From Corynebacterium sp. sy039 (GTDB lineage: Bacteria; Actinomycetota; Actinomycetes; Mycobacteriales; Mycobacteriaceae): a stretch of DNA of 64,000 nt. Shown in pieces: positions 56,398 through 62,675 of the stretch; positions within the stretch are counted from its first letter, which is position 1; each line of letters begins with the position of its first letter. The DNA lies in assembly GCF_007904105.1 (NCBI RefSeq), contig NZ_CP042325.1, forward strand, positions 1,860,001 through 1,924,000. Reading direction: 5' to 3'. The notes beneath the pieces were generated by a model. It saw only the letters and a program-made list of their open reading frames with translations, was not told the origin of the DNA and did no database searches. A program made the position numbers and the translations under genes.

Positions 56398-56575
56398 CTC
56401 ACGCGGATGATGGCCCCGCAATATTGACCACCAAAACCGCTGGTAATTGTCTATTTTCCAGTCTGCTATGAGGTAGTTTTCCCAGATAACACTAAGTGAC
56501 CTTGTCAAATCCGCGTTTTTGCACGGCGATCAAGGTCAAAAAATTAGCTGGATACTTTCCTCAGCGCAATTGACT

Positions 56576-56604
56576 AGCATATACCACTTCTAAAAGAAAG
56601 TAAA
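56576..56604 (-). promoter_or_regulatory. Likely rpoB promoter
   Basis: On the minus strand TTTACT (56599-56604) and TATGCT (56576-56581) are exactly 17 bases apart, a good sigma-A pair. Transcription would begin about 170 bases before the rpoB start. Confidence 0.6.
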
Positions 56605-56666
56605 GTGATATTTACAATACCCACAACCACGCACAATACATACCCCCACATGGCACAAATAGCAAA

Positions 56667-56702
56667 AATCCCTTATCCCCCAAGAACGGGACATAAGGGA
56701 TT
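56667..56702 (-). terminator. Terminator of the first phase-variable surface protein gene
   Basis: Arms AATCCCTTAT (56667-56676) and ATAAGGGATT (56693-56702) with a 16-base loop and a T5 run after it on the minus strand. Confidence 0.88.
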
Positions 56703-56720
56703 ACGCTTGTTTACGTCATA

Positions 56721-58283
56721 CTATGCAGAACGCAAATGACCACCAGTGGTCACCTTCGGACGTGCTTTCTTCACAGTGCCCTTAGATTTCTCTTCCTGCT
56801 TGCTATGCTTTTCGACGTTTTCCTTAACGGTTTGAGCAATAACAGTGGCAGAACCTTGAGGCTTAGGCTGTGACTGCGGCTGTGGCTTATCAGCTTCGAC
56901 AGTTTCTTTCTTCACAACAGGATTGTCTGGAATAACCGTCACAATGTTTTTCGCGCTTTCCTCAGGCTCAGGCTGAGGTGTCTCAGAGACTTCTGGTTTT
57001 TCATTCTCAGTACTTTGGACAGGTTGCTTAGGCGTAGTTACCTTAGAGCTTGGTTCCACAGTAGTTGACTGATCTGAATTATTTGGCTTATCACTAGCAG
57101 GTGTTTCCTTGCTAGGGGTTGACTCTTCGCTAACAGCTGTAGTTGTTTCCGAAACTGTGGTTTCTGGAACTGTGGTTTCTGGAACTGTGGTTGGCGGAAC
57201 TGTGGTTTCAGGAGGACAAATGGTAATGTGCTGGAAGCCTTGGTCACAGTTGTCCTCAGCACCATTAAGGGCACCGTAAAAATTCGTGGCAGAATCCAAG
57301 TCAAGGTTAAAAGCTTTAACGTATTGTCCATAGCGGTCGCTTGTAGCTTCGGTATCCTGACCGATAGTGTCAAAGCGGCCAGTGTTTTCTGTTATGGCGC
57401 AGAGACCCGCTTTGACACCTTGTCCAGAGCCTTCCTCAATTCCATTCGTCTTATAAAACTCAACAATCGCTTTACGTTGTTCTGGAGTTTGTTCTTCGGT
57501 CATTACTGGAGGAAGTTCTCCCGTGTTAGCCCAAACCGGGTTTTCCCACATATCATTCGGTTCTTTCAGGGACGTACACTCTTCAGCCGCACTGCCGAAT
57601 GCGTTTTCATTGTTGCATTTCCACAGCATATTTTCCACGCGGATTGGCGCATAAGTGTCCTCGCCAAGGGATTTAACTGTACCTTTGACCTCAAAAGTGT
57701 AGACTCCAGGCTTATTCCCCAAGCTAATGCGGTAAGAGTTCCACTCAGGTTGGTTATCCAAAGAAGAAGGAGTTACTCCCATTTGCTCAAAAGTGAGAGT
57801 GTCTCCACTGGTGAACTTATAGAAAGGGGTGATGCCAGTAACTTCGTCACGTTCTACATTGGCAGTGTCTAGCTCAGCAGCCTCTTTGAGGGGGACTTCA
57901 TAATCCACTTCTTTAGCTGGAACAGAGTCAATATCTGCGGTGGGAGCTTCACCAATATGAACGGCTTCTGCAGGCATATGGGTGAGACGGATTGACGTCA
58001 CATTCACTGTTGCAGGAAGTAGAATCTGCGCGGATTTAGTTGTCTGGATGTGATCTTCCGAGTGAACCAATGGTGCTATCTGCACCTGCCAGGTGACTTC
58101 CGCGTCGTCACCAACTTCTTTTACACAGGTGGAACCACTATCGCAGTTCGCGCCACCCCATGAACCGAATACATTTTCTGATTCCACAGCTAATACCGAG
58201 GGGGGGGGGAGTAGAACTCCCGCACCAAGTGCCGTTGCGGCAGCCACGGCTGCTGCGCGCTTGGCAAAGCGTTGCATAACCAT
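56721..58283 (-). CDS. Secreted surface protein with C10 tract in its signal peptide (frame ON)
   Basis: 520 residues from ATG 58283 (MVMQRFAKRAAAVAA). I chose this start because its paralog begins MFLQRFAKRAAAVVA with the same four-base gap to the ribosome binding site. Ten consecutive C (58200-58209 on the plus strand as G) encode Pro26-28 of the signal peptide, and the frame stays open. The mature domain (SWGGANCDSGSTCV; WQVQIAPLVHSEDHIQT; about 340 residues) is followed by a Thr/Pro/Glu-rich stalk with VPETTVPETTV repeats and a basic tail ending RPKVTTGGHLRSA. Probably exposed on the cell surface. No family name known to me. Confidence 0.85.
   Translation of the reverse strand: MVMQRFAKRAAAVAAATALGAGVLLPPPSVLAVESENVFGSWGGANCDSGSTCVKEVGDDAEVTWQVQIAPLVHSEDHIQTTKSAQILLPATVNVTSIRLTHMPAEAVHIGEAPTADIDSVPAKEVDYEVPLKEAAELDTANVERDEVTGITPFYKFTSGDTLTFEQMGVTPSSLDNQPEWNSYRISLGNKPGVYTFEVKGTVKSLGEDTYAPIRVENMLWKCNNENAFGSAAEECTSLKEPNDMWENPVWANTGELPPVMTEEQTPEQRKAIVEFYKTNGIEEGSGQGVKAGLCAITENTGRFDTIGQDTEATSDRYGQYVKAFNLDLDSATNFYGALNGAEDNCDQGFQHITICPPETTVPPTTVPETTVPETTVSETTTAVSEESTPSKETPASDKPNNSDQSTTVEPSSKVTTPKQPVQSTENEKPEVSETPQPEPEESAKNIVTVIPDNPVVKKETVEADKPQPQSQPKPQGSATVIAQTVKENVEKHSKQEEKSKGTVKKARPKVTTGGHLRSA
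58200..58209 (-). repeat. C10 homopolymer in the coding strand (ON copy)
   Basis: Ten G on the plus strand, ten C in the coding strand, within the signal peptide of the 56721-58283 gene. With ten C the frame reads CTC-CCC-CCC-CCC-TCG and is open. Confidence 0.95.
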
Positions 58284-58442
58284 CATTCTTCTCTTTTCTT
58301 TCTTAAACTACGCTCTCTTGGTATTCCCCGACCAGAGAGCACCATCAGGCTGAGAAAAACCTAAAAGCCTCCTTATCATAACCATAAAGTGCGTATGCAC
58401 ACCATACTCATCACCCCCACCAAGGTGTTCTATCCCCAATTT

Positions 58443-59534
58443 TCACTCCTGAGTAGGCCAACTTTTTAGGCGCACCATCCACAGTGCAGAAAAAGCAATA
58501 CCCACTATTGCGCAAGCAAGAGCAGATTGCACAGACCAAAGAGAAACTCAGGCACAGCCACCAAAGCAATACGCGTTAGTCAGCGCTAGCGAGCTGAGCC
58601 AAAAGCATAATGAACACACTCAAAGCAGGTGCAGTGATAGCTGCCATATAAAGATTCTTTGCATTCTGAACCGCAAATTCCGTGGCAGCAACAACTGCGC
58701 CAAGCAACCCGCCCAGCGCACCGAGCACCCCGACGACCCCCATCTCCCAACCACCAAAACCCAAAACCCGAACACAATAAACCACAAAACCCGCCTGGAA
58801 AATAGAGCTAAAGAAATTAAAGTGGAACGAAGTGAAGGTGAGGCGCTTAAGGAAGTCATGCCCCAAGATAAAGCGGAAACCCTTAAATGATTGCCGCACC
58901 ACTCCAGGCTCATATGACTCAGATACGGCAGTCGCCCCCTCTTTCTGCCCAGACCTTCTCCAAGAAAACCACACAATCGCAGAGCATAAGACCGCTAAGG
59001 CAAAATTGAAAGAACCGATGAGCATGGTCGTCGCAAAGCTAAAAAATACTGACCAAGATTCCGCCGAACCCCAATCCGCCCAGCTCAGACAATATCCCAG
59101 CACTGCGTAACAAAGAATTAGCTCGGTTAAGCGAGCGATCATCACGACCAACGATCTCCACAATAGCGCTATTAACACCCGCCTCACCCAGCAGAGAAGA
59201 AAAACCCAAGATGAATAAGCACGTATAAAGCACGGGCAAAGACGGTTGCAGTGCAAGAGATAACGCCAGAATCGCTGCACTCAATAAGCGAATAGCATTG
59301 GCAAAAGTAATAGCACGCGCACCACCAAGCTTGTCGACGAAACCCGCAATCACAAGACCAAAAAAACAAAGCAGCTGCCGACTCCGTTAAATTGAGGGCG
59401 GCTACCTGCATAGCCGAGGCATCAAAAACCGCAATTGCGGCAAGAGGAGCCGCAAAAAGAATGAGCTGCACGCCCAGCGCACTCCATAACTCCGCACTAG
59501 CCAGCAATGTTATGAGCCGCTTTGTTGTATTCAT
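58443..59534 (-). pseudogene. Decayed MFS transporter gene
   Basis: From ATG 59534 (MNTTKRLITLLASAELW) the MFS reading passes through at least four frames. A T7 run (59360-59366) has one T too many, joining LFF to GLVIAGFVDKLGG. A T6 run near 59040-59047 also has one too many, joining ILVSIF to SFATTMLIG. Further breaks follow near 58577 and 58545. The last helix is still readable (ALACAIVGIAFSALWMVRLKSW), with a stop at 58443. It lies between the two surface-protein paralogs. Confidence 0.8.
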
Positions 59535-59568
59535 GGGCGTTATCCTAATCACAGGATCCCCAAAAAAT

Positions 59569-59602
59569 AAAAGTCCTAGCACTGGTTGGTGCTAGGACTT
59601 TT
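59569..59602 (-). terminator. Terminator of the second surface protein gene
   Basis: Fourteen-base perfect arms AAAAGTCCTAGCAC (59569-59582) and GTGCTAGGACTTTT (59589-59602), six-base loop, followed by TATTTTTT on the minus strand. Confidence 0.93.
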
Positions 59603-59622
59603 AGATTTCTAAGAAACAAAAA

Positions 59623-61235
59623 TTACGCTGCGCGCAAGTGACCACCCGTAGTTACTTTAGGACGGTCTTTCTTCGCTACAGTCTTAGCCTGCTTAGCGAC
59701 GTTATCCTTCACACTTTCAGAGATAGCGGTCTTAGGTTCAGGCTTAGATTCTGGTTTAGAATCGGCAGGTTTGTCCTCAGGTTTTTCTTCCTTATCCTCA
59801 GGCTCTACGACTGTAGTAACAACCTCACCCTGCTCAGCCTCAACATCTGTGTCAGGTACAGTCGGTGGAACAACAGGCTTAACCGGTTCCTCACGTTCTT
59901 CAGGACGCTCAACCGGCTTCACAGGTTTCTCCTGCTCAGGTTCCTGTGGTTCTTCAGAAGGAGTAGGCTCCTGAGTTTCCTCACTCGGAGTTGGTTCCTC
60001 TGTTTCCTTAGAAGGCTTAGCAGGACCAACCTCCTCTTCGTCGGAAGGCGTTGGTTCCTCAGACTCTACAGGTTCCTCACTAGGAGGCACCTCAGTCTCC
60101 TCATCAGGACAAAGAGTAATATGCTGGAACCCCTGATCACAGTTATCCTCAGCTCCAAGCAGTGAACCATAATAATTCACGGCAGGATTCCAGTCAAGGT
60201 TAAATGTCTCCGCATACTGCCGGTAGCGATCACCACCAGACTCAATATCATTGCTAATCGTGTCAAAACGACCAGTATCACGAGTAACTGCACAGGTTCC
60301 TACACCAGTCAAACCATGCTTTGTACCTTGCTCAGCATACAACGCAGCAATCTTCTCATTCTCTAGGGCGATTTCTTTGTTGCGCTGAACAATTTCTGCT
60401 TTACGAGCTTCAGACGCAGACTCATCCTCAGGAATCATTGGGATAGAGACAGGAGGTAACTCAGCAGAACGCGCCCACGGGTAATTTTTCAGATTCTGGC
60501 ACCCCTCCTCAGCACTACCAGGTCCACCACCCTCAGCAGAACACTTCCACAACATATTATCCGCACGAATCGGAATGTAGGTATCCTCACCAACTGCTTC
60601 AACAGTACCGGTGACCTCAAAAGTGAATACACCCAACGCATACAAGCCGATTTGATAGAAATCCCAATCAGGCTGATACTCAAAACTAGAAGACTCAACA
60701 CCATATGGGTCTCTCGCCGAAACATCAACATCATCTTTTTGAGAAGCAGAAGTTTCGAGCGAACCGGCAGGATTCTTCACAAACGACGACACATGATATG
60801 TCTCGTTATCCTTTAGTTCCTCCATTGAATCAACAATAGGAACCTGGTAATCCACCATCTTTGCAGGAACATAGCTCCAGCTAAAATTATCAGAAGAGTA
60901 GTATTTTTGCGCCGGCATATGCGTCAACCTAATCGACACATCTTTCACCGTAGATGGGATCATAATCTGCGCACCACGAGAGGTTTGGATGTGATCCTCA
61001 GACATCGCCAACGGTGATAACTGCACCTGCCACGTGACCTGTGTTTCATCCCCCACCTGTTTTACACAGGTAGAACCTGTATCACAGTTCGCACCACCCC
61101 ACGAACCACGAACATTATCAGCACCTCCCCCTTCGTTAGCGGCTAATACTGAGGGGGGGGGGCTAGAAAACCCGAACCAAGCATACTTACGGCAACTACT
61201 GCCGCAGCACGCTTAGCAAAACGTTGTAAAAACAT
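59623..61235 (-). pseudogene. Paralogous secreted surface protein, frame OFF at a C10 tract (likely switchable)
   Basis: From ATG 61235 the frame reads MFLQRFAKRAAAVVA and enters ten C (61153-61162). With ten C it continues GCC-CCC-CCC-CCT-CAG-TAT-TAG and stops after 30 residues. With eleven C it would read PPPSVLAANEGGGADN and join the long open frame (59623-61056 and upstream), giving about 538 residues. That frame parallels its neighbour: GSWGGANCDTGSTCV, WQVQLSPLAMSEDHIQT, a PSEEPQEP/TPSEETQEP stalk, and a tail RPKVTTGGHLRAA. Everything downstream is intact, which argues for a phase-off gene and not a decayed one. Confidence 0.82.
61153..61162 (-). repeat. C10 homopolymer in the coding strand (OFF copy)
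   Basis: Ten G on the plus strand, at the position matching the tract at 58200-58209. One C more, or two fewer, would restore the frame. Confidence 0.95.
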
Positions 61236-61565
61236 ATTTCCTCAATTTCTTCCTAGGAAAAAGAACAAAAAAGCACTTTCCAAGCCATCCTCAACCAAAC
61301 AAAGCTGAGAAAAACCTAAAAGCCCCCTCATCATAACCCAAACAACATAATTTTCCACCATAATAGGACTTCTCCCTAAAGCACCCAGTACTCTACGTCC
61401 CCTTTCCAAACCTATACCCCATGCTGGTGTAACCACTTATCAAACAGAACATTAACCAAAGATGAAAACCTGGATTCCGTCGAGCGCATAAAGAAAACAG
61501 TCGGTATCTTTTTAGTGTTTTGGTTTTGTTTCCTTCAATTCTTAACGCGAAAGATAACACTTACT
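61236..61565. promoter_or_regulatory. Divergent promoter region, surface protein versus GDPD gene
   Basis: 330 bases without a gene. GAGGAAAT precedes the surface-protein ATG on the minus strand. The start of the GDPD gene on the plus strand has only a weak ribosome binding site (GCGAAAG). A stretch resembling the upstream DNA of the first surface-protein gene (CTGAGAAAAACC, then TAAAAGCC, then CTCATCATAACC; 61309-61340 compared with 58350-58382) shows the duplication extended beyond the coding part. Confidence 0.5.
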
Positions 61566-62675
61566 ATGAAAAAATATCTGCCAGCACGGGCTATGCTCGC
61601 AGCAACCCTAGTCAGCGCACTTATGCTCAGTGGTTGCAGCAATAGTGAAAGCGACAGCACCGCCGAAAAAACCAGCGCCGCAGCAAGCGCAGCGAACACG
61701 TCCCAGGCTCCTACACCACTGGCAGCCAATAGCAACGCAGCTGCAAGCGCCAAGCTACCTACCACTTTCGATTTGCAAGCACACCGTGGTGGTCGAGGCG
61801 AGTGGACCGAAAACTCACGCACCTCTTTTGAGAATGTCAAGAATGTCGGCGTTACCACCATTGAGCTTGACATTCTTGTCTCCGAAGACGGAGTACCAGT
61901 GGTATGGCACGATGAGGACATTCAGGCAGAAAAATGCGCAGATACCGCACCTGCCACCCCGCAAGACCCCGAGTTCCCATACGTCGGCAAGCTCATTAAA
62001 GATCTGTCTTGGGCACAATTGCAAACCCTCGACTGCAACAAAGCACTCGAGAAGTTCCCAGAAGCAAAACATGAACAGGGCACAAAGCTCATTCAGCTCA
62101 GTGAGCTCTATGACATCTATGCTGGTACCGACGCGTATTTTAATGTCGAGGCAAAGGTAGCCGTGGAAAAACCAGGCACCAACAAACCAAACCCAGAAAT
62201 TGTTAGCGCAATGCTGGGCGCGATCAATGCGTCTGGTATGGCAGATCGCACCACAATTCAGTCCTTCGACTGGAGCATTTTCCCGCTCTTCCGTGAACAA
62301 GCCCCTGAGATTCCATTGGCACTACTCTGGGACGAAACCACCTGGAAGTCTGGTTCCGCATGGACCGGTTCCGTAGATTATGACGCTGTAAAAGGCGATG
62401 TCATTGCAGCCGCCAAGCAGCTCGACGTACAGATCCTGTCCCCTGGTTTTGCGGTTCCTTATGACGCAGCCGCCGGCGATAAAGACTATCACCCTGTGGC
62501 GACACCAGAGTTTATGCGCAAAGCGCACGAGGCTGGCTTGCGAGTAATCCCGTGGACAATCAATGATGAAGCAACAATGCGAGAGCAGATCGACGCTGGT
62601 GTCGACGGCATTATCACTGATTATCCATCCAAGCTCAAGAAGATTCTGGACGAAAAAGGCGTGGAGTATAAGTAG
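61566..62675 (+). CDS. Glycerophosphodiester phosphodiesterase lipoprotein
   Basis: 369 residues from ATG 61566 (MKKYLPARAMLAA). Lipobox LSGC with Cys24, then an Ala/Ser/Thr linker. GDPD catalytic residues are visible: His73-Arg74 in LQAHRGGRGEWTENS, Glu82-Asn83, Glu100 and Asp102 in IELDILVSEDG, and His115 in VWHDED. The barrel ends with IPWTINDEATMREQIDAGVDGIITDYP. It cleaves glycerophosphodiesters outside the membrane to glycerol-3-phosphate and an alcohol. Confidence 0.92.
   Translation: MKKYLPARAMLAATLVSALMLSGCSNSESDSTAEKTSAAASAANTSQAPTPLAANSNAAASAKLPTTFDLQAHRGGRGEWTENSRTSFENVKNVGVTTIELDILVSEDGVPVVWHDEDIQAEKCADTAPATPQDPEFPYVGKLIKDLSWAQLQTLDCNKALEKFPEAKHEQGTKLIQLSELYDIYAGTDAYFNVEAKVAVEKPGTNKPNPEIVSAMLGAINASGMADRTTIQSFDWSIFPLFREQAPEIPLALLWDETTWKSGSAWTGSVDYDAVKGDVIAAAKQLDVQILSPGFAVPYDAAAGDKDYHPVATPEFMRKAHEAGLRVIPWTINDEATMREQIDAGVDGIITDYPSKLKKILDEKGVEYK

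Follow-up and report, generated by a model that had tools for sequence, protein, structure and literature searches.

Why should two paralogous genes carry a run of exactly ten cytosines at the same place in their signal-peptide codons, and why should only one of them be readable? The question is raised by a window of 64,000 nucleotides (positions 1860001-1924000) in the genome of Corynebacterium sp. sy039, a single contig of 2,236,339 bases. In it an earlier note, made from the letters alone, had singled out two genes, here gene 1 and gene 2, as a pair of paralogous surface proteins, one ON and one OFF, and had proposed phase variation. Phase variation is still the best reading, and it is now supported by a family of 20 tract-bearing genes in the genome and by the intactness of the silent copies. 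Very probably, slippage drives the phase variation of an adhesin-like secreted family whose build resembles that of Opa, with a poly-C tract in the signal-peptide codons.

Gene 1 reads from its ATG through the tract and meets a stop after 521 codons. The N-terminus of its product, MMVMQRFAKRAAAVAAATALGAGVLLPPPSVLA, looks like a signal peptide by eye. Both genes have exactly ten C, as first counted, and the explanation based on the preceding codons is correct: the codon at the start of the tract is CTC in gene 1 and GCC in gene 2, and ten C keep the first gene in frame and put the second out of frame. Translation of gene 2 begins at the ATG at 61235, enters the tract out of frame and ends at a TAG (61145-61143), which is the third codon past the codon holding the last C and lies seven bases 3' of the tract. 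Gene 2 has no other lesion, its mature-protein frame being open for 509 codons. The tract codes for prolines directly before the apparent cleavage motif VLA, and CCC is used throughout although it is a minor proline codon, with a share of 10.9% (54 of 496 proline codons in 12 long open reading frames of the window). At that share the chance of three CCC in succession is 0.0013. Runs of eight C give seven overlapping matches in the window against 0.93 in dinucleotide shuffles, and seven were reached in one of 100 shuffles.

The pair is no two-gene curiosity, an idea rejected on finding 20 tract-bearing paralogues in the genome. A search with protein 1, together with frame analysis, gave 21 paralogues spread over 10 places, all but two standing in groups of two to four. 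Twenty carry a run of nine to eleven C at the same leader position, before T(C/T)(A/G)GTATTAGC. The two genes first noticed are members of this larger family, which is accompanied by a second, promoter-type class described below. Tract lengths are C9 in two copies, C10 in 14 and C11 in four. Five genes are in frame (the four C11 copies and gene 1 with its C10) and 15 are out of frame, according to a scripted test that presumes an ATG 73 bases 5' of the tract and is invalid for gene 1, whose state comes from its translation. In 13 of the 15 out-of-frame copies, all of them C10, a TAG lies seven bases past the tract; when OFF, the usual C10 copies encode a leader peptide of some 30 residues. Variable blocks alternate with conserved ones in the family alignment, and gene 1 is the most divergent member, with a long branch in the tree of mature proteins. 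In the tractless paralogue (genome 1976130-1977194) the run is interrupted, the leader open and the end truncated; the relative P0008 in Corynebacterium sp. sy017 shows the same features and is 98.6% identical. Altogether 37 runs of at least nine C occur on either strand of the genome (counted from 88 overlapping matches), namely 20 in family leaders, seven of the promoter type and 10 in various contexts.

Are the silent genes still alive? With 15 of 20 genes out of frame and a decayed transporter gene lying between the two window genes, the family might be a relic, with the five in-frame genes alone of any importance and the others dead pseudogenes. All 15, however, keep the whole mature frame open (478-550 codons) with no second lesion, and every break falls at the same slippery site. 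In the conserved domain the ratio of nonsynonymous to synonymous substitution rates (dN/dS) has a median of 0.33 between silent copies (0.20-0.53; 105 of 105 pairs), against 0.30 between silent and active copies (67 of 75 pairs, eight being dropped with dS undefined or too small) and 0.22 between active copies (9 of 10 pairs, one dropped). Neutral simulation of the six closest silent pairs produced 4.6-8.0 stops on average, zero stops having p <= 0.014; these values and the dN/dS ratios serve as guides, since the paralogues probably exchange sequence. Purifying selection on the silent copies is clear and, if anything, slightly weaker than among the active ones, which is the difference that a relic family would show. 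Given the open frames and this selection we rejected the view that the silent copies are dead, and a relic family is hardly credible. Nor does the state follow descent. Mapped on a tree of the 20 mature proteins, the states of the five in-frame genes call for five changes, the maximum, whereas shuffled labels average 4.5-4.6; ON and OFF thus do not cluster by gene lineage, and the candidate explanation that state tracks lineage was dropped.

Several considerations weigh against phase variation by slippage, among them the slightly weaker selection just described. One main doubt concerns the assembly. Long-read assemblies often miscount homopolymers, the genome is a single-contig assembly, and one out-of-frame length, C10, dominates; were the tracts miscounted, most or all copies would truly be in frame. 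Yet the same assembly contains tracts of C9, C10, C11, C12 and C13, the 12 long open reading frames of the window (416-1336 codons) stay open, and proteins deposited separately for sy017 and for isolate SY003 likewise lack a normal leader. We consider an artefact of this kind very unlikely. The other main doubt is slow drift, in which the alleles are real but tract length changes on an evolutionary and not a generational scale, giving allelic and not phase variation. Such a pattern has a precedent in Cutibacterium acnes, where tract-length variation largely follows clades according to the excerpted report (PMC4746626). Against drift stand the unclustered states on the gene tree, the absence of decay in silent genes, the retention of at least ten C in 18 of 20 leaders in spite of the minor share of CCC among proline codons, and the apparent lack of MutS, which usually corrects slipped repeats. 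The MutS_I model found no match in this genome (the same model matches in 11 of 14 controls), and the NucS_C model matches with an E value of 1.6e-43. NucS-type repair does not correct insertions and deletions, as stated in the portion of the literature source used here (PMC8228993). With MutS not found, slipped C runs should therefore persist. The same portion of that source adds, to the detriment of our interpretation, that DnaE proofreading may remove many insertions and deletions (PMC8228993). On balance drift is unlikely.

Under phase variation, slippage of DNA polymerase in the C run within a clone would alter the length of the run, and as only some lengths join the leader to the mature frame, each gene would be an independent and heritable ON/OFF switch. 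A gene in the usual OFF state would be translated no further than three codons past the tract and would make no exported protein. The silent copies would then form a functional reserve, with the progeny of one cell displaying different members or combinations of members; the likely purpose would be varied host contact, with the proteins presumably acting in adhesion, and a varied view for the host immune system, to which they may be antigens. A softer version has to be weighed here. Slippage on long C or G runs can also occur during transcription or translation, and the conserved tract position would permit transcriptional slippage or ribosomal frameshifting to yield some full protein from OFF alleles, the tract then setting dose and not acting as a strict switch. 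The equivalent G-tract in Bifidobacterium breve is nevertheless assigned to replication slippage in the excerpted report (PMC9187656), and we regard such bridging as quite unlikely.

That the two window proteins are paralogous and secreted, with one frame ON and one OFF, agrees with the earlier description; their surface location is suggested by the signal peptide seen by eye, a Pro/Glu-rich stretch and an adhesin-like beta-sandwich in a structure model of a family protein, a model of low overall confidence. Both end in RPKVTTGGHLR(S/A)A, and by eye their C-termini lack an LPXTG motif and a hydrophobic stretch. Neither has a significant Pfam or NCBIfam match, the one Pfam row being at chance level (E 0.1).

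Does tract state differ between isolates? Homologues were found in sy017 and SY003, with more distant ones in C. zhongnanshanii/zg254 and one further record. Twenty-five of the 30 listed homologues were classed by sequence as belonging to the tract-bearing branch; ten of these were attributed to the genome of sy039 itself, and the other 15 are known from protein annotation alone. The annotated start lies downstream of the tract position in 23 of the 25, and within the leader, in the frame that C9 gives, in two (P0010 and P0013). P0013 is the C9 gene of sy039 itself (100%), which serves as a check on this reading of annotated starts. P0010, from SY003, is 89.9% identical to the sy039 gene at 611298, which has C11 and is in frame, while the YPPPS of P0010 implies nine C. 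For this gene, as far as annotation shows, tract length is not fixed and identical in all strains, a finding that the earlier note would have counted against phase variation had it come out the other way. In sy017 the counterparts P0025 (98.5% identical), P0012 (96.5%, its assignment to sy017 being by deduction) and P0021 (93.0%) are annotated without a leader, and their partners in sy039, at 1975771, 1978839 and 1782580 respectively, are in frame. P0025 and P0008 have consecutive locus tags (EML15_09190 and EML15_09195), in the same neighbour order as in sy039. The annotation therefore supports a difference in tract state between isolates, to the extent that gene callers and a collection clustered at 90% identity can convey it. 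A search of other strains for ON proteins, made with the leader alone, returned P0003 as its sole match and missed the four C11 proteins of sy039; such a search cannot count ON alleles because the protein collection is clustered. A contig scan for the named relatives with the family alignment gave 30 pattern matches, none confirmed, in a set from which near genomes may be left out. Searches for the names sy017, SY003 and sy039 brought up no article about these isolates or their habitat among the matches listed, though the name Corynebacterium sp. sy039 occurs once in PMC10960378.

Within the genus the family is present at E 1e-5 in seven of 242 genomes, sy039 included, the other six having one to four matches each. 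Eight loci from these six genomes have no leader tract, their sole C or G run of at least seven being a C10 that precedes a gene in genome G241. Among the 242 genomes, the expansion and the leader tracts were found only in sy039. A C10 run by itself is nothing special, at least one match occurring in 184 of 242 genomes. The 51 overlapping matches in sy039 are exceeded in four genomes (328, 213, 61 and 60), partly by long C runs near contig starts, and the counts in G057, G120, G122 and G125 were not taken as switch counts, as that of G057 includes such runs. Two of these in G057 (C11:1-34 and C29:87-108) are very long, lie at or near contig starts and are probably assembly artefacts that inflate the C10 counts.

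Simple-sequence ON/OFF switching of surface proteins is a known phenomenon. Phase-variable families on the scale of Opa are textbook matter for Neisseria and similar Gram-negatives, and the Opa repeat lies in the leader. The sy039 family shares with the Opa family of Neisseria gonorrhoeae the many dispersed paralogues with variable regions, each with its own frame-setting repeat, CTTCT in the case of Opa (11 per strain, 12 paralogues, in the excerpted report; PMC5320596). It differs in having no detected protein relation to Opa, in phylum and envelope, in using a C run and not a pentamer, and in having 20 tract loci against 11. Another parallel is offered by the sortase-dependent pilus genes bbr_0113 and bbr_1889 of B. 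breve UCC2003, also an actinobacterium, for which the excerpted report describes replication slippage shown by deep sequencing, and a G-tract that parts a Sec-signal reading frame from the remaining surface protein, the downstream frame being annotated without a signal (PMC9187656). That case comprises two pilus operons with LPXTG pilins and a sortase, unlike the 20-gene family of sy039 with its LPXTG-free window proteins. In C. acnes, again an actinobacterium, the excerpted text lists 54 variable tract loci, 96% of the tracts being G/C; most lie upstream of genes, some within coding frames and one between -10 and -35, and dermatan-sulphate adhesins are tract-associated (PMC4746626). These are scattered single genes with mostly clade-bound variation, and the excerpt describes no single expanded family with the tract at one position (PMC4746626). 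No corynebacterial example of phase variation was found among the matches listed in open-licence literature, in keeping with the earlier note, which knew of none. What appears to be new is the Opa-like poly-C leader architecture in Corynebacterium, and with it a promoter-type class having the same type of tail.

Poly-G switches in promoter spacers, of the porA/opc type, are known from Neisseria. Seven further tracts in sy039 (G11-G13 on the coding strand) precede GTG starts by 43-51 bases and have similar surroundings. By eye, a -35-like TGGACA precedes the tract in six of the seven (TGGCGT in one) and a -10-like TA(C/T)TCT follows just after it in all seven, an arrangement like that of the porA/opc type, though the genes and phylum are different and the sy039 promoters are putative. 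By analogy with known promoter-spacer tracts, we infer transcriptional phase variation for this class. Six of the genes have open frames of 1973, 633, 1879, 1796, 1036 and 1954 codons; the interrupted seventh (L058, genome ~2105600-2111700, minus strand) falls into pieces that are open for 1123, 516 and 266 codons. Of three proteins scanned, two have DUF7507/Ig-like repeats and one has no match. Each of the seven proteins has VTTGG(H/I)L followed by a few residues at its C-terminus, like the small family. A model of this tail finds 30 places in the genome, consisting of the 20 small genes, eight large-protein genes (one of them, at 169363, without a tract), a detached tail that adjoins the tractless copy, and a 475-codon gene. 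The last (L103:1012-2436, genome ~983500-984940) bears the same kind of tail, KNRPKITTGGVLLAK, and has no C or G run of at least seven. Across the genus the tail model matched one of 242 genomes, sy039 itself, at E 0.01, a search too insensitive to claim absence, as C. zhongnanshanii P0030 ends in the similar RVSTGGRIVAA.

Tentatively, and with more doubt than trust, one may picture a single combinatorial switchboard in which slippage at 27 sites picks among 20 leader-tract adhesin-like proteins and seven promoter-tract large, partly repeat-built ones, all clients of the same surface, with the VTTGG tail as a new surface-attachment signal. Whether the common tail marks a new means of surface retention is a testable question. 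If the switching is real, it gives a large combinatorial repertoire of surface proteins to a mycolate-bearing lineage with no MutS found, within a genus that has an easy laboratory model in C. glutamicum; the annotations of the isolates would then be labelling switchable genes as leaderless hypothetical proteins.

The features of the two loci are collected in Table 1. Between them (58576-59534, minus strand) lies a remnant of an MFS-type transporter in several frames, apparently a decayed gene, one piece of which matches TIGR00900 with an E value of 3.3e-11, below the cut-off of the model. In the region 56500-61600 the promoter-like pattern occurs at seven sites against 4.8 expected in shuffles, and the terminator-like hairpin pattern at 12 against 4.8.

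Table 1. Features of the two tract-bearing loci (window positions)
Feature	Position	Strand	Remark
Gene 1, secreted protein of 521 aa	56721..58286	minus	ON with C10; from translation and family alignment
C10 tract, gene 1 signal-peptide coding region	58200..58209	minus	within LLPPPS, before VLA
C-terminal tail of gene 1, RPKVTTGGHLRSA	56724..56843	minus	type also found on large proteins encoded elsewhere
Gene 2 leader frame, ATG to TAG	61143..61235	minus	30-codon peptide; present OFF state
C10 tract, gene 2 leader	61153..61162	minus	
Gene 2 mature-protein frame	59623..61152	minus	509 codons without stop; frame differs from leader
C-terminal tail of gene 2, RPKVTTGGHLRAA	59626..59745	minus	
Promoter-like TGGAAA-16-TATGAT upstream of gene 2	61330..61357	minus	consensus match only
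Terminator-like hairpin 3' of gene 2	59568..59603	minus	15 pairs

Other tracts lie in or near unrelated genes. An hsdM-type methyltransferase gene (L019:2205-4660), followed by hsdS, has a C9 tract at genome 959545-959553. A 550-codon frame, which contains the N6_Mtase domain in full, ends 35 bases past this tract, and a 285-codon stretch continues in another register. The locus is a candidate phase-variable type I restriction-modification system, its methylase domain preceding the tract. A G10 run (L012:2759-4265, genome 445845-445854) is read in frame as Gly-Gly-Gly, close to the start of a gene that immediately follows one for an ShbA-type sigma factor; this and the hsdM tract could add a regulatory layer to the tentative switchboard. 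Loci L015, L017, L018, L020, L021, L028 and L031 have C10 upstream of or near the starts of other genes and are possible further expression switches. The genes beside them include those for a DUF2938 protein, an MFS transporter (Pfam), an IS1595-like transposase (Pfam, just below cut-off) and ABC-type ATPases (by eye). Finally, a C9 (L026:2637-3371, genome 1833165-1833173) is read from the other strand as Gly-Gly-Gly, in frame, in a 244-codon gene that looks secreted and has no Pfam match.

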